Below are positions 2,678-36,296 of a stretch of DNA of 64,000 nt, piece after piece. The stretch is from a virus: IMG/VR virus record IMGVR_UViG_3300042923_000307, positions 1-64,000 of that record. One strand, given 5' to 3'. The position numbers and the translations under genes were made by a program. The first letter of the stretch is position 1. Every line of letters begins with the position of its first letter. The notes under the pieces are model-generated. The model was not told the origin of the DNA. It did no database searches and saw only the letters and a list, made by a program, of their open reading frames with translations.

Positions 2678-2709
2678 GATAGTTGTTGTGGTATAAGTAT
2701 ATTGTAGAG
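2669..2709 (+). promoter_or_regulatory. class A promoter of the PRTRC cassette
   Basis: CAAAAATAGGAT, 8 bases, TGGTATAAG (2689-2697), then TTGTAGA. A leader of about 185 bases follows. It contains a small hairpin (GTGGG, CAAC loop, CCCAC) just before the ribosome site of the next gene, and a possible 20-codon GTG-initiated frame from 2746 whose AGGAGG-like site is too close to trust. Confidence 0.8.
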
Positions 2710-2896: not shown

Positions 2897-3613
2897 ATGA
2901 CTAACACTGCACAAAAGATTGCCGAGTACAACGGAACTCAATTCCCTTTCCCAGCTGGTACTACTGCCCCAGTAATGCTTAACACCTTGAAAGCAATGTA
3001 CCCTGAATTGGAAACTGGTGGATACCGTGAAGAATCCGATAAGACTGTGTTCTTCGTTGTTGCTCAAAACAAATCTTTGGCTCAGAAAATCGCTGAGTAC
3101 AACGGAACTCAATTCCCTTTCCCAGAAGGTACTTCTGCCCCTGTTATGTTAAGTACTTTGAAAGCAATGTACCCTGAATTGGAAACTGGCGGCTACCGTG
3201 AAGAATCCGATAAGACTGTGTTCTTCGTAGTTGCACAAAACAAATCCATGGCTGCTGGCGACCAAAAGATTGCTGAGTACAATGGTACTCAATTTCCCTT
3301 CCCAGCTGGTACTTCTGCTCCTGTAATGTTAAACACTCTTAAAGCTATGTACCCTGAATTGGAAGCTGGCGGATACCGTGAAGAAGCAACTAAGACTGTA
3401 TTCTTCGTAGTAGCACAAAACAAATCATTCGCTGGTGGAGCTTCCATCATTGCTGAGTACAACGGTACTCAATTCCCCTTCCCTGCTGGAACTACTGCTC
3501 CAGTAATGCTGAATACTTTGAAAGCTATGTACCCTGAATTGGAAGCTGGCGGATACCGTGAAGAAGCAAATAAAACCGTGTTCTTCGTAGTAGCACAAAA
3601 CAAATCTAAATAA
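2897..3613 (+). CDS. four-repeat PRTRC_C (ubiquitin-like) protein, 238 aa
   Basis: The protein is four near-identical copies of one domain of about 54 residues, starting at residues 7, 64, 124 and 184, joined by linkers of 3-6 residues (LAQ, MAAGDQ, FAGGAS). Each copy matches PRTRC system protein C: YNGTQFPFP, then TLKAMYPEL, then KTVFFVVAQNKS. PRTRC cassettes on plasmids carry one copy next to B, A (JAB) and ThiF genes, as here. A beta-grasp, ubiquitin-like role is inferred from the JAB and E1-like partners. There is no terminal Gly-Gly; Gly pairs occur in the last linker. It has a strong GGAGGA site and mostly preferred codons, which suggests abundant expression. Confidence 0.88.
   Translation: MTNTAQKIAEYNGTQFPFPAGTTAPVMLNTLKAMYPELETGGYREESDKTVFFVVAQNKSLAQKIAEYNGTQFPFPEGTSAPVMLSTLKAMYPELETGGYREESDKTVFFVVAQNKSMAAGDQKIAEYNGTQFPFPAGTSAPVMLNTLKAMYPELEAGGYREEATKTVFFVVAQNKSFAGGASIIAEYNGTQFPFPAGTTAPVMLNTLKAMYPELEAGGYREEANKTVFFVVAQNKSK
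2915..3610 (+). repeat. four tandem PRTRC_C coding repeats
   Basis: The units begin at about 2915, 3086, 3266 and 3446 with spacings of 171, 180 and 180 bases. They are nearly identical as protein but differ at many third codon positions, so the copies are not a fresh duplication and have been kept alike at the protein level. Confidence 0.9.
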
Positions 3614-3626
3614 TTAAAATAAAAAA

Positions 3627-3666
3627 GCAAATGGGAGGGGAGGAGTCTCCTCTCTCGCTTTTTTTT
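3627..3666 (+). terminator. terminator or attenuator after the Ubl gene
   Basis: A GGGGAGGA/TCCTCTCT hairpin is followed by eight T. The next gene's ribosome site begins right after the T-tract, so partial read-through would give much Ubl protein and less of the downstream enzymes. Confidence 0.7.
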
Positions 3667-3678
3667 AGGAGGTTCAAC

Positions 3679-3933
3679 ATGCCAAGTCTTATTGAACTAA
3701 TAGAGGAGATAAACGAATCATCAGTATTTGGAGCAGCAGCGGATACTGTGTACGAGTCCATTAAAAATGCTACATCTGTACAAGAACTTTTACAAATAAA
3801 TATTGATTCACCAGCAGTTATAATCCGTAGCGTAAGAGATACTCTAGCTAGACAATCTACACGTAGAGCTGGGGAGCTTTGCCGCTTAATATCTGCTATA
3901 CCATCTGTAGCTGTACAGGAAGACTTTATATGA
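3679..3933 (+). CDS. hypothetical protein in PRTRC cassette, 84 aa
   Basis: ATG 3679 follows TAGGAGG; the open frame extends upstream through the terminator but without a ribosome site. The product is helical (IELIEEINESS, IIRSVRDTLARQSTRRAGELCRLI) and resembles no family I know. It sits between the Ubl polyprotein and the rest of the cassette, so it may be a cassette-specific partner. That role is inferred from position only. Confidence 0.7.
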   Translation: MPSLIELIEEINESSVFGAAADTVYESIKNATSVQELLQINIDSPAVIIRSVRDTLARQSTRRAGELCRLISAIPSVAVQEDFI

Positions 3934-3946
3934 GGAGGTGTGAAAA

Positions 3947-4942
3947 TTGGCTGAGGTTATGACAGCGGAAGGTGCTAACGACCTTATTGATAAACTTGAA
4001 GTGTACCAAGCAATAAAATATATACAGGAAAAAGGTATTTTAAATAGGTCTGTAGGAGCATCCTTAAGTGATGAACCTGCTATTGTTATTCGTAAATGTA
4101 TTAAAGCACTAGCTAAGCATCTGTTCCCTACTTGTGAACTTAGAATGATTAGTCGTGGTGTACAAGTAACACTAAACCCGCAGCACAGTAAAATGCTGGG
4201 CCTTGTAACAGATTATAACCTGACTGAAACAAGGAATTGTTTAGAACACATACCAGAGTTAAGAACAGTACTCCATACTCTTAACCAGTCAGTAGGCTCT
4301 ATAAGCGGTGTAATAACTACTGAGGTTGTTTCTCGTGGAACTATGATGCTTACTATAAAAGCTGGAATGGAGTCTCTTCGTACTAGAAGAAGTGCTATGT
4401 TCGATTATCTGTACATGATGGTAGAGGGTATGGAGCAGCTGAAAAGTAACTTAGATGCTGTATCATTGGCTATACCAGACGTAGAGGCTGCAGCAGCTCA
4501 AGGTTTAGCTCTTAAACGTGAGGCTGAGCGTCTTAGAGACTTAGAGATAAGCCGTGAAGTAGACGATGTTCTATCGCGTCTAACAGGCGTAACTTATGGT
4601 CAAGGTATTATCTCAGAAGCGAGTCAAGCTGTAGTAGAAGTTGCTACAACAGACACAGGACTATTTATGGAGCCCCAAATACATGCGGCAAACCACGATG
4701 ATGACGATGATGATGATGACGATGATGATGATGTTTTAGACTTTACAGATAGAGCAGGAACTCGGGAAATACGAGATGATGTTGTTGACGTAGTTGACGA
4801 TGATGACGTTTTAGATACTGTTGAGTCAGAAACTACTGCGGGTATCAGACTTCAACGTCAAAGACAAGCAAATACTCGTATGGCTAACGCCGAAGAAATG
4901 GCTAGACTAAATGAAATTATGAGGAGGCAGGGTTTAATATGA
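3947..4942 (+). CDS. hypothetical protein with poly-Asp tract, 331 aa
   Basis: I use TTG 3947, eight bases after GAGGAGG; ATG 3959 is the alternative. The N-terminal two thirds is helical with no known motif. A run of 12 Asp lies near residue 251-262 and a second acidic patch (DDVVDVVDDDDVLD) follows, then a basic C-terminal helix. Its last codons overlap the PRTRC_B start by four bases, so it is translationally coupled to the cassette. Its role there is unknown. Confidence 0.75.
   Translation: MAEVMTAEGANDLIDKLEVYQAIKYIQEKGILNRSVGASLSDEPAIVIRKCIKALAKHLFPTCELRMISRGVQVTLNPQHSKMLGLVTDYNLTETRNCLEHIPELRTVLHTLNQSVGSISGVITTEVVSRGTMMLTIKAGMESLRTRRSAMFDYLYMMVEGMEQLKSNLDAVSLAIPDVEAAAAQGLALKREAERLRDLEISREVDDVLSRLTGVTYGQGIISEASQAVVEVATTDTGLFMEPQIHAANHDDDDDDDDDDDDVLDFTDRAGTREIRDDVVDVVDDDDVLDTVESETTAGIRLQRQRQANTRMANAEEMARLNEIMRRQGLI
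4697..4732 (+). repeat. GAT/GAC microsatellite coding 12 Asp
   Basis: Twelve consecutive Asp codons, ten GAT and two GAC, lie in frame in the unknown cassette protein. The near-pure trinucleotide run could vary in length by slippage. Confidence 0.9.
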
Positions 4943-5652
4943 GTTCCGATAAAATTACAGCAGTAATAGAAAATGGAATAGCCAATGTAAGCTATGAGGC
5001 TAACAATAGAAAGAAATCAAAGACAATTCCAACAGAGGCCCTATGCAAGGCAATACTATCTGGTATGAACACAGGCCGTCAGGTAAACCTTAGTCCGTTG
5101 GGTCTTAGACTTCACGGACGTTCAGGCGACAAGGTAATCGTAGGGTACGAGTTCCCTGAACGCGTAGCTAACATGCCGTTCACAGATGATGACGGTAAAA
5201 AGATTAGCTTTGATTCGGTATGGCCTTGGGGTCTTACGTTCATTGAGTTTAGTGATACTCCAGAAGGACTACAATGGTCTACGTTCTATCAGTTTGGTCT
5301 AAAAGGTCCTATTACATCATTGGATACTATGATGAGTCAATGGCCTGGTTCTAACGTATTTGGAGGTCACAACTGCTGCATAGGTGAGATTAAAGTACCA
5401 AAGATTCCGTCTATTGAGCAAACTGGTGGACTTCCTTTTATATTCTATAATGGTATTAGTAATAGAGACTTATCTGAAAAACGGTTTACACCTTTCGTAC
5501 CAGAAGGTACTAAGAGTAAGATTACAAGACCACTTGAACTTTACAGGTATCTAACTGTAAAAAGCGGTGAACAACCTAAACCATTCCCGTATGATATTAT
5601 GATAAATGCCAAAACAATTCGTTCATTCTTAACAGAAAAGGGGTATATGTAA
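4939..5652 (+). CDS. PRTRC system protein B-like, 237 aa
   Basis: The start overlaps the upstream stop (ATGA-type coupling) and follows GAGGAGGCAGG. The length and the mid-protein motifs (LSPLGLRLHGRSGDKVIVGYE, GHNCCIGEIKVP) fit PRTRC protein B, a family of unknown biochemistry found in plasmid PRTRC cassettes. It lies directly before the JAMM protein, as B usually neighbours A and ThiF. The assignment is from recall of the family pattern, supported by the neighbours on both sides. Confidence 0.7.
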   Translation: MSSDKITAVIENGIANVSYEANNRKKSKTIPTEALCKAILSGMNTGRQVNLSPLGLRLHGRSGDKVIVGYEFPERVANMPFTDDDGKKISFDSVWPWGLTFIEFSDTPEGLQWSTFYQFGLKGPITSLDTMMSQWPGSNVFGGHNCCIGEIKVPKIPSIEQTGGLPFIFYNGISNRDLSEKRFTPFVPEGTKSKITRPLELYRYLTVKSGEQPKPFPYDIMINAKTIRSFLTEKGYM

Positions 5653-5653
5653 T

Positions 5654-6889
5654 ATGAGCAACTTATTTGAACTTAACCGTCAGGCTTATGGAAATGTTTC
5701 TAATGTAGGTACTGTAGTAGCAGGTGTGGCTGCACCTGTAACACCAGTAGTACCAGCTCCATCCGAAGAGGAATTACTGGAGCTAATTGCACCAAGTATC
5801 TATTCGTACCATACCAAATATGCTGATGGGGTAGAGGCCAGTGATAAAGCTCAGCAAATCTTTATGGCATATAATGGTATATTCGTACGTCGTACTGAGA
5901 AGTTTAATGATAACGTAATCTCCGTAATAAGCGAAGTTAAGAAAGTTCCTGGTCTGCGTAGTGTGAAAGAGGGCATACTTGTAGACCTACAGAGCAAAGT
6001 TCCATTCGCTATATTTGAGGAGTTAGTTGCTAACTATCGTGCTGTATACAGACGGGATAGTACGGAGTCTTCTGCACAGGTTTATCGTTTAAAAGAGGTA
6101 GATGATAGATGGCCTGGTAAAGAAGTAGGAGACTATGTGGTTTACTATCCTAAACAAAAGAACTCGGGTGCTAATACAAACTATTCAGAAGATGCGGATG
6201 CTGTAATCAATATCCGTCAGAAACATACTATTGTTATGGAGTCACATGCGCACGCTAATTTTAGTGCTTTCTTTAGTGGTGGGGATGATAACAACGAAAA
6301 AGCACCTCTGTCTTATTGTGTAATTGGTCATGTAAACTCTGATAAAGTAAGCTTTGCTGGTCGTGTTAAGCTTCTGGGAATGCAGAAACTTATGAACGTT
6401 GAAGAGCTGTTTGATGTACCTGAAGGTAAAGGTGATGTTCTTACAGTAGCTAATCTTAGTTTACCAGAGCCAAGCCCTGTAATGTTAGCTAATGCTACAC
6501 ATGCTAGTGGCGGTGTTAAAACAGCTGCACAGATTGCAGAGGAACGTCAAAAACAAGGTATCGTTGTTCCGCATAAAACTTGGGCCGCAGGTGCTCCCGC
6601 ATACAATGGTGGTTATACCAGGAATAATTATGGTACTCATTATAGCGGTGCTGACTACAGAGACTATGGGTATAGAGACTATGATACGCAAGATTATGGT
6701 AAGTATAGAAGCAATAAACACAGCGTACATAAAGCTGACCGTAGAGCTGCTAAAGCTCTTAAGAAACTTGATGTAGAGTGGATTGCTGATAACCTTGATG
6801 ATACAAGAGCTCTTGTTTTACTGGAACTCTTAACCGAAAGAATCGAAGCTAAGACCGCAATGAAAACAGAATTAAAGGGGGATAAATAA
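5654..6889 (+). CDS. PRTRC system protein A-like JAMM/JAB peptidase, 411 aa
   Basis: A complete JAMM metal site is visible: His198-x-His200, then seven residues, Ser208-x-x-Asp211 (SHAHANFSAFFSGGDD). JAB proteins of this type are zinc isopeptidases that cut ubiquitin-like proteins from partners or precursors. The C-terminal region, about residues 310-350, is Tyr/Gly/Asp-rich low complexity (GADYRDYGYRDYDTQDYG), then a charged helix. The gene sits between PRTRC_B and the ThiF-like gene and overlaps the latter by one base. Likely substrates are the four-copy PRTRC_C protein or its conjugates; that is inference. Confidence 0.82.
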   Translation: MSNLFELNRQAYGNVSNVGTVVAGVAAPVTPVVPAPSEEELLELIAPSIYSYHTKYADGVEASDKAQQIFMAYNGIFVRRTEKFNDNVISVISEVKKVPGLRSVKEGILVDLQSKVPFAIFEELVANYRAVYRRDSTESSAQVYRLKEVDDRWPGKEVGDYVVYYPKQKNSGANTNYSEDADAVINIRQKHTIVMESHAHANFSAFFSGGDDNNEKAPLSYCVIGHVNSDKVSFAGRVKLLGMQKLMNVEELFDVPEGKGDVLTVANLSLPEPSPVMLANATHASGGVKTAAQIAEERQKQGIVVPHKTWAAGAPAYNGGYTRNNYGTHYSGADYRDYGYRDYDTQDYGKYRSNKHSVHKADRRAAKALKKLDVEWIADNLDDTRALVLLELLTERIEAKTAMKTELKGDK

Positions 6890-7794
6890 TGTCTAACGCA
6901 ACTACAACCGTGTCTCCATTTCCAAGCCTTCAACAACATATTCCAATCGTGCAGGATGGTATTAATATAATTCAAATTGGTATGGGTGGCACAGGCTGCC
7001 CTGTAGCCATGAACATACTTAAACTAATTGGTGGTATGGAAAAAGACCTACAGACTCGTATTCGTTATATTGGTATTGATGGCGACGTGTTTGAAGAAAA
7101 GAACTTGGGACGACAACTGTGTATCCGTCCTGATATGGGTAAAAATAAAGCACAAGTAATTGTAAGCAGATATGCTAATGCATTTGGTGTTAGCGATAAC
7201 TGCGCGTCTTACTCAGATGAATATATCAAAAGTCCAGCAGACGTTCTTAAGTATATGAATGTTGCTTACACAAATATTGTAATTGATAACCTGGACAAAA
7301 ATCGCCCTAGAGTATGGTTACATGAGGCTGTTAAACAATTCGTATCTAGCTACAAAATTGCGTATGTGTATGAGATTTCTACAGGTAATGGTGAGTGGTC
7401 AGGTCAAGTAGCTATGGGTTGTACACACAAAGTTAATAGTACAATTATCAGACACGAACCTGGTAGAACAGCTATGGATTCTCCATACTACTTCTCAATT
7501 CCTTCCCCATTTGTAGTTCATCCTTCTCTTCTGGATACGACAGTGGATGACCGTGAAGAAGCGCTAAGTTGTGCTGACAGAGCTGCTGCTAACGTACAAA
7601 CTCTAGTAGCTAACAATATGGCTGCTACACTATGCTTTAACTATGTAAATGCTATATTCGCACAATTCATAGCACAAGTTAATGGTAAAGACGATGTTCC
7701 TCAAACCATTGGGACTGTACGTTTTAATGCTAAGAACAATGGTTTTCAAACGGAGCAACTTACGGATACTTATCTCGCGAGGGAGGTACTATAA
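6889..7794 (+). CDS. ThiF/E1-like adenylyltransferase (PRTRC ThiF), 301 aa
   Basis: A Rossmann nucleotide-binding motif GMGGTG lies near residues 31-36, followed by the acidic RYIGIDGDVFEEKNLGRQ block (Asp, then Asn-x-x-Arg-Gln) and the KNKAQV lysine region, all typical of the ThiF/MoeB/E1 superfamily, which adenylates the C terminus of ubiquitin-like proteins. No MoeB-type CxxC zinc pairs are seen. It is one-base coupled to the JAMM gene before it and to the unknown gene after it, matching PRTRC cassettes in which ThiF, A, B and C cluster. Confidence 0.88.
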   Translation: MSNATTTVSPFPSLQQHIPIVQDGINIIQIGMGGTGCPVAMNILKLIGGMEKDLQTRIRYIGIDGDVFEEKNLGRQLCIRPDMGKNKAQVIVSRYANAFGVSDNCASYSDEYIKSPADVLKYMNVAYTNIVIDNLDKNRPRVWLHEAVKQFVSSYKIAYVYEISTGNGEWSGQVAMGCTHKVNSTIIRHEPGRTAMDSPYYFSIPSPFVVHPSLLDTTVDDREEALSCADRAAANVQTLVANNMAATLCFNYVNAIFAQFIAQVNGKDDVPQTIGTVRFNAKNNGFQTEQLTDTYLAREVL

Positions 7795-8465
7795 TGCTTA
7801 ATAATTCAGCACGTTCAAATCCAGGTTATAGTGGTATAGCCACAAATGGTGGTTACGCGTTAATAAGCTCTTACACTGGTTCTAATAATGGGAGAGAGAT
7901 GGGGCGTATGATTGCGCTCTCTCTCGGTGCTCCAGTACAGTTTCTTTCTAGCTCCAACAGGTTGAGCTCTCATACATTCGCAGCAATGTTGTATATGTAC
8001 GAAGTCGAGTACCTTGGTAGGGATGGGCAAGCTAGCGTATGGGGTCAGGAATATACGGACGTAGCACGTAGGGAGCGTGTTCCTAAGTACATGAATGACG
8101 ATGTATCAAGCACTGATGTACTATGCTTAGCTTTTAACGCACTACGTAGCAATGACTCTAATGAAGGGTACTTCATATTCAATAGACTTATACAGAAATT
8201 TACAAATATTAATGCTGATGAGTTTGGGGGGTACATGACGTATCTTATTAAGAACGACGGTGTAAGAGTACCAGCGTTTATTAGATTTCTAAAGGAATGT
8301 GACTCAGGTTCTTTAATCAAAGCTGTTATGGATGCTATAAATGAAGAAAAGACTAACTCTCGTATTAGAGCAGCTCTTACTAGACTTAGAGATAGTGAAG
8401 AGTTTGCCGCTGTTTCCCAGCAAGTTACGTCTAAGATTTTAGCAGCATCCCAAAATCATCAGTAG
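7794..8465 (+). CDS. hypothetical protein ending the PRTRC cassette, 223 aa
   Basis: The start overlaps the ThiF stop by one base (TAATG), so it is almost certainly co-translated with it. The protein is soluble and helical with no motif I recognise (VEYLGRDGQASVWGQEY, FIRFLKECDSGSLIKAVMDA). I see no E2-type catalytic cysteine context. Its tight coupling makes it a candidate extra component, perhaps standing in for other PRTRC proteins. It is followed by the noncoding palindrome region. Confidence 0.75.
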   Translation: MLNNSARSNPGYSGIATNGGYALISSYTGSNNGREMGRMIALSLGAPVQFLSSSNRLSSHTFAAMLYMYEVEYLGRDGQASVWGQEYTDVARRERVPKYMNDDVSSTDVLCLAFNALRSNDSNEGYFIFNRLIQKFTNINADEFGGYMTYLIKNDGVRVPAFIRFLKECDSGSLIKAVMDAINEEKTNSRIRAALTRLRDSEEFAAVSQQVTSKILAASQNHQ

Positions 8466-22015: not shown

Positions 22016-25000
22016 ATGTATCTTGATATGCACGAGAAGTGGGACGTTATCAAAAGACACGTAACAGATGGTATACGGTCACTATTCCCTATAGAAGTTC
22101 CAAAAGGTAGAGTAGAGCTTATAAGCGTTGAAATGAAAGAGCCTGAAAACCTCGTATCAAGTCAGCGTGAAGCTTTGATAAAGGGCGGTAGTTTAACCGC
22201 CTCTGTTTATGGTACGTTCAGGTTAACTGACGGTCACGGAGGTACAGTTGATACTGCTAAGATAAAAATACTTGATTTACCTCTGATAACACACCGAGGA
22301 ACATTCGTAGTTCAGGGTAAGGACTATAGTGTATTCAATCAGATGCGTTTGCGCCCAGGAGTTTACACTACGAAGTCAGAGGAATCTGGTGACGTAACAT
22401 CACGTTTCAACTTAGGTAAAGGTCTAGGTTTCAAAATAGAACTTAGCCCTAATGAGGGTATATTTTACGTACGTTTTGATAAGTCTAAAGCTAGTACAAG
22501 TAGCCCTAAGATTCCGTTGTATTCACTAGTTCGCGTATTAGGAGCCGCTGACTCAGACATTAAAGCTAGATGGGGAGAACGAATCTATAATGCTAACCAC
22601 GATAAGTCTCACATAATAGAAGACGCACGTAAAATAGTTGACTTAACAGTATACGGGGCTAAGCGTACAGGTAATGATGTTGAGGACATACGTAACTATT
22701 TCAATGATACACAGCTTAACGGCGATACAACTAAAGTAACGCTAGGTAGCTCTTACGACAGGGTACAGGCTGGCGCATTACTTGATGCTACGGCTAAGAT
22801 GGTACATGTTTATAGTGGCGCTGAACATGAAGACGATATGGATAGCTTGCTGTTCAAGGAAATCTTATCTGTTGAAGACCACCTTATGCTACGTATACAG
22901 AAAGGTATTAAAGACACAGGTGTACTTACTAAGATTAAACGTAAGATAGGTGAGGAAAAAGAGCTTCGTAAGATTATCCCTACGAATATGCTTACCAAAC
23001 TGATTGAAACGTTCTATACTACGTCGTCTCTTGCGTCACCACAAACAGAGATTAACCCTATCGAGATTCTGGAAACAAACCATAAGATTACCGCTATGGG
23101 TGAAGGTGGTATTAAGAGTGAGCACGGTATACCTATGTCTGCCCGTAACTTACATCCATCGCACTTTGGATTCTTAGACCCTGTTCGTACAACAGAGTCA
23201 ACTCGAGTTGGTGTCGACTTACGTACGACACATAACTCAGAGGTAAAAAACCGAAACATATACACCACTTTCATAGACCGTAAAGGTGCCAAAGTATCAC
23301 TAAGACCTATTGACTTGAGTGGCAAAACGATAGGGTTCCCTGGTCAAGAAGGTCATAAGATAGTAAGAGTCTTGCTTAACGGTGAAATGAAAGAGGTTCC
23401 AGCAGCGTCGGTAGACTATTGGATGGAGAAGTCCAAGGATATGTTTACGTACACCTCTAACCTAGTTCCATTTCTACACAACGACCAAGGTAACCGTGTA
23501 ACTATGGCTTCACGTATGGTTACGCAAGCAGTTCCTCTGGTACATAGAGAGGCCCCACTGGTTCAGGTTGAAGACGAGAGTGAGCACGGAACATTCCAGA
23601 AAAGATTAGGTACAGAGTTCTTCTCACCTAAAGCACCAGAAGATGGTACGGTTAACGAGATAGGTGAAGGCTTCATTCGTATAAATAATAGAAAAGTAGA
23701 CCTTTATCATAACTTCCCACTTAACGAAAAGACATACATTCACATGACACCTTTGTTTAAAGTAGGAGACAAAGTAAAGAAAGGACAAATAGTAGCTGAA
23801 TCCAACTTCACTAAAGACGGAACACTAGCTATTGGTACTAACCTCCGTACAGCTTACATAGGGTATAAAGGTTGGAATCATGAGGATGGTATGGTAATTA
23901 GTCAACACGCAGCTACTAAGTTAACATCTCAGCATATGTACGTTAAGGAAGTTGAGAAGAGTGACGACGTAACTGTAGACAAAAACCGTCTAATCAAGTT
24001 CTTCCCATCCAAGATAACAGCAGAACAAATGCGTAAACTGGATGATGAAGGTGTAGCTCAGAAGGGTCAGACAATACACAAGGGTGACTATGTAATCGCA
24101 GCTTTAGCTAAGCGTGACCTTACAAACTCTGACATGATGTTATCCAAACTACGCGGAGCATTAGCTAACCCCTATAAAGACGTATCGGAAGTTTGGGACC
24201 ATGATAGACCAGGGACTGTAACAGACGTTATACGTAATGGTAACTTAGTCAGAGTAATACTTACCACAGAAGATGAAACTCGTGTAGGTGATAAACTTAC
24301 AGGTGTTCACGGTAATAAAGGTACAGTAACACTTATACTACCTAACCACGAAATGCCTAAGGATAAAGACGGAAAACATATTGACATGCTATGGAATACA
24401 GCTGGGGTTATATCCCGTGTTAATCCTGGTCAGCTTTATGAAGCTATGGCAGGTAAGATTGCTGCTAAGACAGGTTCTCCTTATATTGTTAAAAATTTCT
24501 CCCCTGAGGATAGTAGTCGTAAAGTTATTAATGAGCTTAAAGCCCACGGTTTAAAACCAGAAGAGGACCTATACGACGCTAAAACAGGACGCCATTTAGG
24601 TGAGGTATTCGTCGGAAATCCACACGTTCTTAAGTTACATAAGCAAACAGAGGGTAACTTCGCTGCTCGTTTCACTAAGAACTACGACGTTAACTTGCAG
24701 CCTGCTAAAGGCGGTGAGGAAGGTTCTAAAGCTATAGGTCTACAAGATGTGTATGCTTTACTAGGACACAACGCTAGAGCAAACCTACACGAAATGGGAG
24801 CATACAAGTCTCAACGTAATGAGGAGTTCTGGGATTCGGTACGTATAGGGTTACCAATACCACCAGCAAAAGAACCGTTTGCGTTTGAGAAGTTTAAATC
24901 GTTAATTGGTGCTGCTGGTATCCACGTTAACAAAGGTAAAGACGCGTATACTATAGCTCCTATGAGCGACAAGCACATAGTACACCAATCTGCTGGTGAA

Positions 25001-26143
25001 ATAAAGTCTAGCGCTTTATTAGCTAGTAGCATGAACTCTGTAAAAGTTGAACCAGGTGGTCTATTCGATGAGTCTGTAACAGGTGGTTTAAAAGGTAAAA
25101 ATTGGGCTCATATGGAACTATCTGAGCACATTATAAACCCACTATTTGGTAACGTAGTAAAGACTATGCTTGGTGGTACAGACCCTTATGAAATGAAACC
25201 ATCAGATGTAAAGGCACAACTAGCTAAAATAGATGTTGATAAACGTATAGCTGAAATTCGCTCAGCTCTTGGTAGTACTAAAGGTAGTCCTCGAGATAAA
25301 CTACTTAAAGAGCTACGGTACTTAATGGCAGCTAAGAAACTAGGTATGCACCCAAAAGACTACGTACTGTCTAAGTTCCCAATACTACCACCACAATTCA
25401 GACCTGTTTACCCATCACAGTCAGGCGGTGTGCCGATGGTATCCGATATTAACTATCTATACCGTGATATGATGAACGTAAACAATGAATTGTCTAAACT
25501 TAAAGACTTCCCAGAGACTGACCCTACAAAGCTTAAGCTACGTAAAGACTTACAGCAGGCCGCAGGTGCTATCGTAGGCGTAATGAAACCTGTTAATAAG
25601 AAGAGCGAGAAGCAAGACCTTCAAGGTGTTGTACCACTCTTAACAGGAGGTAAACTTGATGGAGGCGGTACTTCAAAAGAGAGCTTCTTCCACCGTAAGT
25701 TAATGAAGCGTAACCAGGATTTAACAGGTCGTGGTACGATTCTACCAGACCCTAGTTTGCACGTTGACTACGCTAAGATACCTATAGACATGGCGCACCA
25801 GTTATTCAAACCATTCGTAATTAATAACTTGGTTAAAAAGGGCCTAACACCTATCCAGGCAGCTAAAGACGTAGCCGACAGAACACACATAGCATCTAGG
25901 GCGTTAGAGGAAGAGATGGAACGCAGACCAATACTATTAAACCGTGCCCCAACTCTTCACAAGTACAACATGATGGCATTTAAACCTGTAGCCGTAGAAG
26001 GCAAGTCTATATTCATACCACCTCTAATTATCAAAGGGTTCAACGCCGACTTTGATGGTGATAGTGTCGCAGGTGATACGTACGTTATTGTACAAGACAC
26101 TGACGGAACAGTACGCTTGGTGAAAATAAAAGACGTTGAATAG
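22016..26143 (+). CDS. RNA polymerase beta-beta' fusion, N-terminal part, ending in N-intein, 1375 aa
   Basis: One polypeptide covers beta and the first part of beta'. Beta blocks include VVQGKDYSVFNQMRLRPGVY, GYKGWNHEDGMVISQ near residue 620, and RVGDKLTGVHGNKGTV near 760. Beta' blocks begin near residue 1030 (WAHMELSEHI), then LPPQFRPVYPSQSGG, LNRAPTLHKYNMMAFKP, and the Mg-binding NADFDGD at 1343-1349. There the extein stops: the last 26 residues are an N-intein. Beta-beta' fusion is known in some bacteria, and phages carry divergent multisubunit polymerases, but alone this chain lacks the trigger loop and bridge helix. The start follows AAGGAGC, two genes after the portal. Confidence 0.95.
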   Translation: MYLDMHEKWDVIKRHVTDGIRSLFPIEVPKGRVELISVEMKEPENLVSSQREALIKGGSLTASVYGTFRLTDGHGGTVDTAKIKILDLPLITHRGTFVVQGKDYSVFNQMRLRPGVYTTKSEESGDVTSRFNLGKGLGFKIELSPNEGIFYVRFDKSKASTSSPKIPLYSLVRVLGAADSDIKARWGERIYNANHDKSHIIEDARKIVDLTVYGAKRTGNDVEDIRNYFNDTQLNGDTTKVTLGSSYDRVQAGALLDATAKMVHVYSGAEHEDDMDSLLFKEILSVEDHLMLRIQKGIKDTGVLTKIKRKIGEEKELRKIIPTNMLTKLIETFYTTSSLASPQTEINPIEILETNHKITAMGEGGIKSEHGIPMSARNLHPSHFGFLDPVRTTESTRVGVDLRTTHNSEVKNRNIYTTFIDRKGAKVSLRPIDLSGKTIGFPGQEGHKIVRVLLNGEMKEVPAASVDYWMEKSKDMFTYTSNLVPFLHNDQGNRVTMASRMVTQAVPLVHREAPLVQVEDESEHGTFQKRLGTEFFSPKAPEDGTVNEIGEGFIRINNRKVDLYHNFPLNEKTYIHMTPLFKVGDKVKKGQIVAESNFTKDGTLAIGTNLRTAYIGYKGWNHEDGMVISQHAATKLTSQHMYVKEVEKSDDVTVDKNRLIKFFPSKITAEQMRKLDDEGVAQKGQTIHKGDYVIAALAKRDLTNSDMMLSKLRGALANPYKDVSEVWDHDRPGTVTDVIRNGNLVRVILTTEDETRVGDKLTGVHGNKGTVTLILPNHEMPKDKDGKHIDMLWNTAGVISRVNPGQLYEAMAGKIAAKTGSPYIVKNFSPEDSSRKVINELKAHGLKPEEDLYDAKTGRHLGEVFVGNPHVLKLHKQTEGNFAARFTKNYDVNLQPAKGGEEGSKAIGLQDVYALLGHNARANLHEMGAYKSQRNEEFWDSVRIGLPIPPAKEPFAFEKFKSLIGAAGIHVNKGKDAYTIAPMSDKHIVHQSAGEIKSSALLASSMNSVKVEPGGLFDESVTGGLKGKNWAHMELSEHIINPLFGNVVKTMLGGTDPYEMKPSDVKAQLAKIDVDKRIAEIRSALGSTKGSPRDKLLKELRYLMAAKKLGMHPKDYVLSKFPILPPQFRPVYPSQSGGVPMVSDINYLYRDMMNVNNELSKLKDFPETDPTKLKLRKDLQQAAGAIVGVMKPVNKKSEKQDLQGVVPLLTGGKLDGGGTSKESFFHRKLMKRNQDLTGRGTILPDPSLHVDYAKIPIDMAHQLFKPFVINNLVKKGLTPIQAAKDVADRTHIASRALEEEMERRPILLNRAPTLHKYNMMAFKPVAVEGKSIFIPPLIIKGFNADFDGDSVAGDTYVIVQDTDGTVRLVKIKDVE
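26063..26143 (+). other. N-intein fragment of a split intein (26 residues)
   Basis: Directly after NADFDGD, the sequence SVAGDTYVIVQDTDG matches intein block A, with Ser as first nucleophile and the GDT core. It ends 26 residues later at a TAG followed by a terminator, so the short piece is by design rather than a cloning or reading error. Joined with the 230-residue C part at 1132-1821 it gives a complete intein with blocks A, B, F and G. Confidence 0.88.
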
Positions 26144-32748: not shown

Positions 32749-33537
32749 ATGGGAGAGGCAATAGTAGTAACGAGTGGTAAAGGCGGGGTGGGTAAAACTA
32801 CAACAACCGCAAACCTCGGTGTAGCCCTGGCAGCAATGAATAAAAGGGTCGCACTGGTAGACACAGACATCGGGTTACGCAATTTGGACATAGTTCTTGG
32901 GTTAGAGAACAGAATAGTATTTGACCTAGTAAACGTTGCGCGACAGGAATGCGACGTACGTACTGCATTAATTAAGGACAAGCGTTACCCTAATCTACAG
33001 TTGTTGGCGGCAAGCCAGTCTAGAGACAAAGAAGATGTAAAACCCTACGATGTGCAGTTAGTCATTCAGGAACTGGTTAAAGACTTCGACTATGTACTTG
33101 TGGACTGCCCCGCTGGAGTTGATAGGGGATTCCGTAATGCTACCGCAGGTGTTACATCGGCGTTAGTTATAACTACCCCTGAGATACCATCAGTGCGCGA
33201 CGCTGATAGGGCGATAGCTATGCTTGAGGACTTACATATAAAGCCTAGAATTATTGTAAATAAGATAAGACCTAGTATGGTTAAGTCTGGTGATATGTTA
33301 GAACTAAATGGTATAATGGATATATTGATGGCAGAGCTTATAGGATTGATACCTGACGATGATGCTATTATAGCGTCTACTAATAAAATGGCCCCAAGTG
33401 TAGCTCGTGTACCTGGCTCAAACGCAGCTGTAGCGTATAGAAACATAGCTAGAAGAGTTACAGGGGAACAAGTACCCTTTATGGAAATTAAGCCTCTTCC
33501 ACTCTTCGAACGTCTTAGACGGGCGGTCAGTGGTTAA
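32749..33537 (+). CDS. minD: MinD septum-site ATPase, 262 aa
   Basis: The deviant Walker A GKGGVGKTTTTANLG lies at residues 10-24, followed by VALVDTDIGLRNLDIVLGLE, which is the MinD rather than ParA signature, then YVLVDCPAGVDRGF and TTPEIPSVRDADR. The last residues (PLFERLRRAVSG) can form the amphipathic membrane-targeting helix of MinD. The length is the family's normal 260-270. With the MinC-like protein it could build a membrane-bound division inhibitor, or the pair may position phage structures. AGGAGG precedes the ATG. Confidence 0.93.
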   Translation: MGEAIVVTSGKGGVGKTTTTANLGVALAAMNKRVALVDTDIGLRNLDIVLGLENRIVFDLVNVARQECDVRTALIKDKRYPNLQLLAASQSRDKEDVKPYDVQLVIQELVKDFDYVLVDCPAGVDRGFRNATAGVTSALVITTPEIPSVRDADRAIAMLEDLHIKPRIIVNKIRPSMVKSGDMLELNGIMDILMAELIGLIPDDDAIIASTNKMAPSVARVPGSNAAVAYRNIARRVTGEQVPFMEIKPLPLFERLRRAVSG

Positions 33538-34558: not shown

Positions 34559-35155
34559 ATGCTTTGTATTAACCTAACCAGTATCAGAGACAACAAGCCT
34601 ATAATACTAAATAATAAGCTGGCGGCCCACAGATTATACTTAGGCAGCAGTGACGTACCTAGTTTCCCGAATAGACTAGTTTTTAGCGTCACAGCAGATG
34701 AATTAGCACGACTATCTGCACAACTACAAGAACTTGAGGTAGACTGGGTAACAGAGGAACTAGCAGCACTGGAAAGAGTACCAGTGTTTTTGGTTATTCC
34801 CTTTGCACTACGAGTTCAAGAAGAGGCGTTTACTAGCTTCCGTGAGAGGTCTTCAGCGGTGACAGAATCACAGCTAAACCTAAACCTAGGCCAACCTTCA
34901 ATATTTATAAGGGGCTCACAATTCCCCATAATATGCACAGCGTGCGAACGGCAAGAGGAGTTAAAAGGTAGAAGATGCCCAGATTATGTAGAGGATAATT
35001 ATGGGTGCTTCAAGACATCGAGGTTCGCGCTAGACGCTATGGACACATTCTACTTAACAGAGAAAGGGGAGCTAGTTTATAATGCTACATCAATCAGTGC
35101 ACCACCAGAACAACAAGTGGAAAGTGACGCAAGTACCGCAACCATCGTCGCCTAA
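34559..35155 (+). CDS. hypothetical protein, 198 aa
   Basis: AAAGGAGGA precedes the ATG. The protein is soluble with helices (ADELARLSAQLQELEVDW) and a Cys-containing part (ICTACERQEELKGRRCPDY, GCFKTSRFALDAMDTFYLT) that could bind metal. It overlaps the RT gene by 74 bases, so the two are tightly linked. Not recognised. Confidence 0.72.
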   Translation: MLCINLTSIRDNKPIILNNKLAAHRLYLGSSDVPSFPNRLVFSVTADELARLSAQLQELEVDWVTEELAALERVPVFLVIPFALRVQEEAFTSFRERSSAVTESQLNLNLGQPSIFIRGSQFPIICTACERQEELKGRRCPDYVEDNYGCFKTSRFALDAMDTFYLTEKGELVYNATSISAPPEQQVESDASTATIVA

Positions 35156-36296
35156 TCATGACCTACCCGTACTATTAGACGAGTATAACCTATGCAACCT
35201 ATTGGGGTACAATGGTAAGTATCCTTGGTACGTAGTGCACAATGCGGCAGAGTGCTACCAAACATTCTGGATAGACAAAGATACAAAATGCGTAGTAAGC
35301 GAGTACAATGAGGACCTTAACTTACGAGAAATATCAGCCCCTAATGGTTCATTAAAAACACTGCAAGGAAGACTAGCGGGTCTTGTGCTAAGTAAGCTTC
35401 CTAAGCACGATTGTAACTACGCCTATATGTCAGGAAGAAATGTACGTCAGGCCGCTGATACTCAGGTAGACGGTGATGTATTAATTCGTATAGACCTAAA
35501 GGATTTCTTTACACATCACTACGAACCTTATGTTCGTGCTAAACTTCATGAGCTTACTGGGTATAGTAAAGAGATGTGCTGGTTTATTACTAAGTTATGC
35601 TCACTCAGAGGCAGCCTACCACAAGGCGCTGTTACGTCTCCTGTTCTGTCTGTTGTTCTAAATTACGATATGGATGTTAGAATATCTGATATTGCAGCAG
35701 CACACAATTTAGTGTATACTAGATATGCGGACGATTTATGCTTTAGTGGTTCCGATAGAAACGATGCGCACCTTCACTCTTTTATCAACGAAGTATCACA
35801 TGCAGTACACCCGTTCCGTGTAAACTGGAAGAAAGTTGATATTATGCGGAATAGTGCTAGAAGCTTCGTTTGCGGTATTGAAGTACGCGGAGTTACCCCT
35901 GAAATGGAGTTTAACCTTATTGAGGAAAATGGTTTTAAGGTTAAACGCACAGCATCAAAACTTATGTACACTACATCTAAGCCAGTTGCGGATGATGTGA
36001 TAACTTCCATATCTAACAGTATATTAAGCACCAATGCTAATGTAACAGTACGACCCAAGAGGTTTTATATGCAGAGTATTAAGCGTATGCTTGGTATGCA
36101 TTTAACTGACGGTATAAACTACCCTCGTGATAAGTATAAGAAGATGCGTGTAGAGGCAATGTTAGTATCCAAAGGAGCAACAAACGTAAATGTTGCACGG
36201 TTTAAAGGTCGGCTAGCATTTATGCGACTAGTAGACCCTGATAAGGCAAATAAGATTGATGAAATAATTAATAAACACAGGAGGGTGGCCCAATGA
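35082..36296 (+). CDS. retron-type reverse transcriptase, 404 aa
   Basis: RT motifs are in order: RNVRQAADTQVDGD, VLIRIDLKDFF (first Asp), GSLPQGAVTSPVLS near residue 178, the catalytic RYADDLCFSG (YADD at 215-218), then a region-Y-like NSARSFVCGIEVRG. The LPQG motif and the short length without a maturase domain favour retron-like RTs over diversity-generating ones, which have an SQ motif. Start ATG 35082 follows AAAGGGGAGC inside the preceding gene. A giant structured RNA lies 540 bases downstream. Which RNA it copies is unknown. Confidence 0.88.
   Translation: MLHQSVHHQNNKWKVTQVPQPSSPNHDLPVLLDEYNLCNLLGYNGKYPWYVVHNAAECYQTFWIDKDTKCVVSEYNEDLNLREISAPNGSLKTLQGRLAGLVLSKLPKHDCNYAYMSGRNVRQAADTQVDGDVLIRIDLKDFFTHHYEPYVRAKLHELTGYSKEMCWFITKLCSLRGSLPQGAVTSPVLSVVLNYDMDVRISDIAAAHNLVYTRYADDLCFSGSDRNDAHLHSFINEVSHAVHPFRVNWKKVDIMRNSARSFVCGIEVRGVTPEMEFNLIEENGFKVKRTASKLMYTTSKPVADDVITSISNSILSTNANVTVRPKRFYMQSIKRMLGMHLTDGINYPRDKYKKMRVEAMLVSKGATNVNVARFKGRLAFMRLVDPDKANKIDEIINKHRRVAQ

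Follow-up and report, generated by a model that had tools for sequence, protein, structure and literature searches.

The first 64,000 bases of the 69,662-base IMG/VR virus contig IMGVR_UViG_3300042923_000307 (from here on, the window) contain at 2897-8465 a run of genes, all on the plus strand, that encode a precursor of four ubiquitin-like (Ubl) units, an E2-like protein, a JAMM metalloprotease, and an E1-like enzyme. The coordinates agree with those of the original prediction, which had been made from the DNA letters and their translations. Sequence comparisons place this cassette in the known PRTRC/Iyer type 6d kind, within which it forms a divergent phage branch, and all catalytic residues of its E1, E2, and JAMM proteins are intact. 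We favor, with moderate confidence, the reading that the cassette is a phage-borne system for Ubl processing and conjugation, the targets of which are probably virion or assembly proteins. This reading is suggested by the presence of the modifier and the enzyme classes all together, the invariance of their catalytic residues, and the recurrence of the cassette.

Family assignment and catalytic residues of the cassette

To assign the proteins to families, we used leave-window-out profiles, which were built without the window sequence (for the Ubl, from 38 non-window units) and run against 511 stop-to-stop open reading frames (ORFs). The window proteins were the top matches in all four cases, with E values of 9.9e-7 for the Ubl precursor C4, 5.7e-16 for B, 1.9e-40 for A, and 1.1e-41 for ThiF, in agreement with the original prediction of a phage PRTRC-type cassette with C, B, A, and ThiF. 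That prediction had also looked to searches with the PRTRC families for confirmation; these matched A and ThiF directly at scores below the cut-offs, and B and C only via homologues and profiles. Specifically, A matched PRTRC_A (TIGR03735) with an E value of 5.6e-8 and 32.6 bits (cut-off, 101.8) and Prok-JAB with an E value of 0.0019, while ThiF matched PRTRC_ThiF (TIGR03736) with an E value of 5.7e-22 and 78.2 bits (cut-off, 144.75) and Pfam ThiF with an E value of 8.9e-9. Window B and single C units alone had no family match in library scans. Among the B homologues, 27 of 37 matched Prok-E2_D (best E value, 2e-18) and 20 of 37 matched PRTRC_B; among the homologous Ubl units, 11 and 10 of 42 matched Prok_Ub and PRTRC_C, respectively. 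Sequence searches of the PDB returned no relatives of C, B, or ThiF.

A (411 amino acids; 5654-6889) contains the JAMM motif HAH-x7-SxxD (H198, H200, S208, and D211; 6245-6286), the four residues of which are identical in all 34 homologues, and its metal site is thus intact, as had been proposed. ThiF (301 amino acids; 6889-7794) has a nucleotide loop, R75, K87, D136, and C228 that are kept in nearly all of 33 homologues. C228 (7570-7572), which lies in SCADRA and is the predicted E1 thioester cysteine, is kept in 32 of the 33, and the single exception is a broken ORF. A and ThiF are separate ORFs and do not form a JAB-E1 fusion. B (237 amino acids; 4939-5652), the E2-like protein of the Prok-E2_D/PRTRC_B type, has N139 and C147 in the form P-x-x-N-x(7)-C-x-G, and both residues are present in 34 of 34 homologues; C147 (5377-5379) is the predicted E2 thioester cysteine. 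There is no His downstream of C147 in window B; instead, an Asn (N175) is invariant in this region in 34/34 proteins. The original prediction had envisaged a conjugation or processing system of polyprotein, protease, and E1; these parts are present, but the E2-like B with its invariant Asn and Cys was overlooked.

Two further genes are conserved parts of the cassette and had not been counted in it. Y (84 amino acids; 3679-3933) starts at the in-frame ATG at 3679, in an ORF listed from 3631, and ends with ...QEDFI. In 34 of 41 cassettes, the genes for Ubl and B flank a gene for a small protein with a C-terminal [FY][IVL]. The Y proteins (in the window, L002, L003, L004, L006, L050, L120, and other loci) have a mostly acidic tail and are otherwise diverged beyond recognition. 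Their C-terminus may be a conserved docking or recognition tail. X (331 amino acids, with an Asp-rich stretch; 3947-4942) had no family match in library scans and no detectable relative in related loci; it takes the place of the helical, rapidly diverging protein of Iyer type 6d, an assignment based on position. The last gene of the range (223 amino acids; 7794-8465), which had been included, matched no library family, has no homologue in related cassettes or loci, and probably lies outside the conserved cassette. An Rfam search identified no RNA family in the cassette region.

Iyer et al. 2006 described type 6d as comprising a Ub-like protein with a C-terminal Gly, a helical protein, an E2-like protein without the classical His, a JAB protein with JAB-N, and an E1 (PMC1779556), and this type corresponds to NCBIfam PRTRC A/B/C/ThiF. 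The window cassette has the same protein classes and gene partners, including an E2-like protein with a Cys and no classical His as well as JAMM and E1 proteins that match PRTRC_A and PRTRC_ThiF. It differs from 6d in that it is carried by a phage and not by a bacterium or plasmid, encodes a four-unit precursor and not a single small protein, has Lys-Ser in place of the conserved Gly, lacks a His after the E2 Cys, has no ParB or PRTRC_D that we could find in the contig, and scores below the NCBIfam cut-offs. In type 6e, which has one to three tandem Ub repeats, JAB and E1 are joined in a fusion protein and the E2-like (RWD-type) domains are inactive (PMC1779556). The window cassette shares the tandem Ub-like repeats with 6e but has separate JAMM and E1 proteins and an E2-like protein with a Cys.

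The four-unit Ubl precursor and its expression signatures

C4 (238 amino acids; 2897-3613), with AGAAGGAGG just before the gene, is a tandem tetramer with its own terminator, as had been proposed. Its four units of ~56 amino acids are separated by short linkers. Unit 1 (2897-3076) ends with ...VVAQNKS and is followed by LA, while units 2 (3080-3247), 3 (3260-3427), and 4 (3440-3607) end with NKS followed by MAAG, FAGG(A), and one extra Lys plus the stop codon, respectively. In protein sequence, the units are 91-95% identical to unit 1. At the DNA level, where identity is 84-89%, each pair of units differs by 13-18 synonymous changes, and the ratio of nonsynonymous to synonymous substitution rates (dN/dS) is 0.06-0.09. 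The repeat is far beyond chance, and all four units are under strong purifying selection. In the Bacillus phage KLEB27-3, which also encodes four units, the units are almost identical in protein sequence with synonymous sites near saturation. Such conservation despite synonymous divergence is the pattern of eukaryotic polyubiquitin, in which each unit is separately constrained. All four window units end with Lys-Ser, and the Ser codons are TCT, TCC, TCA, and TCT; because these codons are not all the same, the terminal Ser must have been retained and does not reflect a sequencing error.

The original prediction had expected a beta-grasp fold. An AlphaFold2 model of unit 1 has the order strand-strand-helix-strand-strand at a predicted local distance difference test score (pLDDT) of 88.5, which is consistent with, and falls short of proving, this fold. 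Library matches of whole C4 (CUE, with an E value of 9e-8; EpsI; and several PHROGs) were rejected as repeat artifacts because no matched stretch passed alone and single units matched nothing.

Several signatures set the Ubl gene apart from the enzyme genes. A promoter-like motif, TTGTGGTATAAGTATATTGTAGA, is located upstream of the gene at 2686-2708 (+). The motif TGTGGTATANNTATNNTGTAGA occurs in eight copies in the window against 0.01 expected, all on the plus strand (1893, 2686, 26188, 26435, 33583, 34292, 36821, and 54538) and intergenic where checked, and is probably the phage's own promoter class. An intrinsic terminator (3632-3657, +; -21.8 kcal/mol, z -3.3) lies directly 3' of the gene, and 26 of 33 cassettes have a terminator-like hairpin in the corresponding position. 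The gene ranks first among the 63 window genes in codon bias, with a fraction of C-ending two-fold codons of 0.87 (mean, 0.49; standard deviation, 0.12) and 0.8% rare codons; the ranks of B, X, ThiF, and A are between 45 and 60. In other cassettes, the codon bias of the Ubl gene exceeded that of its neighbors in 29 of 30 (median z, 2.6), which was not the case for the enzymes. The Ubl gene thus looks like a transcription unit of its own that is highly expressed, and the high expression ascribed to C in the original prediction is upheld as far as such sequence signs go. An abundant modifier combined with a scarce enzyme would be what a tagging system needs.

Recurrence of the cassette and its possible link to virions

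A point missed in the original prediction is that the cassette is not peculiar to one phage and recurs in many, with one to six Ubl units. We identified the same cassette in ~40 IMG/VR virus contigs, many of which are near-identical to each other, in the isolate phages Bacillus phage KLEB27-3, Vibrio phages D69, D181, and D148, and Salmonella phage Arash, and on Bacillus and Cytobacillus plasmids. Some IMG/VR entries that come from isolate genomes (L058-L060) may represent plasmids and not phages. Only ~6 of 50,697 phage records have the cassette. Scans of viral contigs with a single ThiF, a single Ubl unit, or the first A alignment returned no relatives, which were recovered only by a ThiF alignment that included KLEB27-3 and later sets. 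The set conserved elsewhere consists of Ubl, X and Y (the order of which varies), B, A, and ThiF.

Among the closest counterparts is gp199-gp194 of vB_BauM_KLEB27-3 (OM634661), with a four-unit Ubl, a small protein ending with DDFI, a large protein, B, A, and ThiF in the same order; we found no published analysis of this cassette. It differs from the window in that its units end with GVKG, B, A, and ThiF are ~24-30% identical to their window counterparts, and single-unit lineages lie between the two in the tree. Phages D69, D181, D148, and Arash have the whole cassette and a related terminase (~30% identity); in contrast to the window, their Ubl units end with GTKG, Arash has a single Ubl, and the cassette is near terminase and virion genes. 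The Bacillus velezensis plasmid pAD3 (four units) and the Cytobacillus oceanisediminis plasmid pN497-ZHONG (two units) encode a poly-Ubl, a small protein ending with D[FY]I, a large protein, Prok-E2_D, JAMM, and ThiF in the same order, differing in being large plasmids and in having GTKG-ended units.

Six units are found in L120-L123, the 359-amino-acid poly-Ubl of which has GTKG-ended units and is the longest found; four in the window, KLEB27-3, pAD3, L058, and L059/L060; three in D69; two in the L007 group, L053, L111, and L115; and one in the others. When a tree was built from the concatenated B, A, and ThiF sequences of 30 cassettes with known unit count, at least five changes between single and multiple units were required, and tandem multiplication of the Ubl therefore looks recurrent. 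The window has a long branch in this tree, and its deep placement is moderately supported (0.845). We also observed that in L017 (5377-5827) two single-unit Ubl genes adjoin each other and have near-identical ends, an arrangement that may represent a tandem-duplication intermediate. Extra C-terminal residues after the last unit occur not only in the window but also in KLEB27-3, pAD3, L004, L016, and L053. These residues vary (K in the window and C, F, Y..., MPRIVVK, and INYSK elsewhere), as do the linkers. Recurrent extra ends and variable linkers are what one would expect of ends matured by a protease.

The cassette and the terminase gene are arranged head to head in many metagenomic phages, and a terminase clearly related to that of the window is present in 19 of 31 records searched (E values of 1e-51 or better; 28-31% identity). 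A search of the cassette records with a T4-type capsid family matched nowhere and is, hence, uninformative.

An independent hint comes from phage Arash, for which 116 proteins were listed in sucrose-gradient particles analyzed by liquid chromatography-mass spectrometry (PMC10585845). We found that table numbers after Gp239 equal the GenBank number plus one. Arash gp243, ThiF, A, and X have lengths of 159, 346, 412, and 320 residues, of which the listed coverages (80.50, 77.17, 61.41, and 76.25%, respectively) are exact fractions, and B (251 amino acids) is covered at 100%. With unshifted numbering, no exact fit was obtained for any of the informative percentages, and this option was rejected. 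The exact fits with shifted numbering support that the Arash E1, E2, JAMM, and X proteins are present in the particle preparations. We note that the Arash Ubl gene (L057 107-307; OQ632216) was missed in GenBank, where gp251c overlies it in the wrong frame; the true frame reads MSTSIRATVVHIPGRDARTLDNLDMSVQDATRQFDSAFQTSSMDSREEVIDGVRHIYFSRRTGTKG. For this reason, a search of the particle spectra against the GenBank ORFs would have been unable to detect the Arash Ubl.

The contig itself is linear and probably a fragment. The window contains genes for a GpA-type terminase and RNA polymerase as well as tail/baseplate genes, as read from the ORFs, which identifies the source as a tailed phage that encodes its own RNA polymerase. 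The polymerase genes have an apparent split intein at the active site (22016-26143, +, and 1-1887, -). The fused beta/beta-prime ORF contains FNADFDGD and terminates 26 codons further on with SVAGDTYVIVQDTDGTVRLVKIKDVE, an intein start motif. On the opposite strand ~24 kb away, an ORF opens with an intein-like region (Pfam Intein_splicing; E value, 4.7e-7) that ends with NNILVYD and is followed by TMQVHVPVSEEARLEA, the continuation of beta-prime. This arrangement suggests that protein trans-splicing with a very short N-half may rebuild the polymerase. The window also encodes a reverse transcriptase (35082-36296, +; RVT_1 E value, 2e-10) with its best match among retron-type reverse transcriptases (PADLOC RT_III-A; E value, 1.6e-53); a phage retron could be an inter-phage defense element.

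Proposed mechanism and alternative explanations

We envisage the following sequence of events, in which cleavage, activation, transfer, targets, and biological role are inferred. Much four-unit Ubl precursor and little enzyme would be made, the former from its own transcription unit. A would cut behind each Lys-Ser (Lys-Gly in relatives) and trim the extra Lys to yield near-identical Ubls of ~6 kDa. ThiF would adenylate the new C-terminus and hand the Ubl via Cys228 to Cys147 of B, as the intact and invariant residues suggest, and B would join it to targets. These would most likely be virion or assembly proteins of the phage itself; X and Y may act as adaptor, E3-like, or target proteins. A may also strip the Ubl tag. 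The idea of virion targets is based on the Arash particle proteomics and the location of the cassette beside the terminase gene in other phages. Because the Lys before the last residue is invariant, the remnant on a modified lysine after trypsin digestion would be just one Gly (or Ser) and would escape standard di-Gly searches.

Several observations weigh against processing plus conjugation. Most importantly, the units of relatives nearly all end with Lys-Gly (the weak relative L087 has NKAA), in contrast to Lys-Ser in the window, and in the Cap2/cGAS system, replacement of the C-terminal Gly by Ser abolished conjugation, while replacement by Ala only reduced it (PMC10097602). A second, Gly-ended Ubl was sought elsewhere in the 69.7-kb contig and not found. 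No other finding argues as strongly against ordinary conjugation in the window phage as the Lys-Ser end, and it is mainly for this reason that our confidence in the favored reading stays moderate. Foldseek searches with the Ubl unit returned many PB1, SUMO, Ubl, and protein-G domains, which are consistent matches but weak ones, with E values of at least 0.26 and template modeling scores of at most 0.57. With a model of B (pLDDT 89.1), Foldseek gave unrelated beta-rich proteins and no E2 match, and the assignment of B as E2-like therefore rests on families and motifs. With respect to virion targets, the window cassette does not adjoin structural genes, the Arash cassette proteins have only two to five unique peptides each, which is odd beside the high coverages, and the Arash authors allow for carry-over of abundant enzymes into particles (PMC10585845). 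Finally, in the papers that could be searched, we encountered no demonstration of adducts, of cleavage, or of targets for a 6d/PRTRC system.

A different explanation is that, at least in the window phage, there is processing without conjugation and the Ubl units, cut or uncut, are multivalent and bind partners noncovalently. The change from Gly to Ser would then mark loss or change of the E1/E2 step. We regard this explanation as rather unlikely. It fits with Lys-Ser in all four units and the effect of the same change on Cap2-type conjugation. It also fits with the long branch of the window in the tree and with changes in the window at several positions conserved in ≥85% of homologues (N77L, F78C, and E168G in E1; P173I and F174S in E2; W145R, T210G, and G222C in JAMM). 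However, a decaying pathway would be expected to lose the E1, E2, and JAMM catalytic residues, which are kept, and purifying selection on the units is strong, terminal Ser included. We read the Lys-Ser end and the altered conserved positions, in combination with the kept catalytic residues, as adapted specificity more than decay. For conjugation to operate in the window phage, E1, E2, and JAMM would need adaptation to the Ser end; E1 or JAMM specificity for such an end is not described in the papers searched.

A role in counter-defense, in which the phage tags or strips host (e.g., defense) proteins or uses its JAMM protease to remove host Bil- or CBASS-type tags from phage proteins, appears distinctly unlikely. 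The cyclic oligonucleotide-based antiphage signaling system (CBASS) with Cap2/Cap3 as well as Bil follow the same E1, E2, and JAMM logic, differing from the cassette as host defense and, in Cap2, by combining E1 and E2 in one protein. Neither system is known to have a poly-Ubl precursor. In support of counter-defense, bacterial Ubl conjugation acts against phages in CBASS (PMC10097602) and, according to Hor et al. 2024 as cited in PMC12660748, in Bil, and Borg elements have many JAMM-like enzymes that were proposed to remove host tags. Yet, the phage also brings the modifier, apparently in excess, as well as E1 and E2, which would be needless for pure tag removal. Moreover, the cassette adjoins the terminase gene in many phages, cassette proteins are found in Arash particles, and there is no close match to defense E1-E2 proteins (best PADLOC E value, 2.6e-4).

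Activation of the Ubl by ThiF for thiocarboxylate formation, as in sulfur carriers of the ThiS/MoaD type serving cofactor or tRNA modification, is very improbable: a ThiF-type E1 and a beta-grasp carrier do also make up sulfur transfer systems, and one homologous unit matches ThiS (E value, 0.0028), but sulfur carriers are not characterized by tandem units, high expression, or an E2-like partner with an invariant Cys, and the cassettes of related loci showed no rhodanese or cofactor gene. Scarcely credible is a role in replicon maintenance (partition) inherited from plasmid PRTRC cassettes: the cassette type does occur on Bacillus (four Ubl units) and Cytobacillus (two) plasmids, and a MinD/ParA-like ATPase gene adjoins the terminase gene in the window (32749-33537, +), but PRTRC ParB (TIGR03734) and PRTRC_D were not found in the 69.7-kb window contig (a fragment), KLEB27-3, D69, or Arash, the lack of ParB in the contig having been noted originally, and annotated phage records show no partition gene adjoining the cassette. 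PRTRC_F had no match either, as was also the case for the control.

A 2021 survey of jumbo phages, which shares authors with the 2006 paper, does not mention Ubl, JAB, ThiF, or E2-like genes (PMC7824862), and we found no phage-encoded Ubl system described in the open-access literature, although subscription papers may contain an earlier mention. Prokaryotic Ubl conjugation has so far been discussed mainly as part of host metabolism or anti-phage defense. If the reading of the cassette as a processing and conjugation system is true, phages themselves would run tagging, possibly on their own virions. We tentatively suggest, as a possibility that we hold with less confidence, that some large tailed phages may modify their own particles by a dedicated polyubiquitin-like pathway, in which a multi-unit Ubl precursor produced in excess would be matured by the JAMM protease and attached by E1 and E2 traveling with the virion and, in the phage studied here, with a Ser-ended modifier. 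PRTRC/type 6d systems, for which we found no worked-out function in the papers searched, would gain a tractable setting in the form of small operons and the cultured phages KLEB27-3, D69, and Arash.

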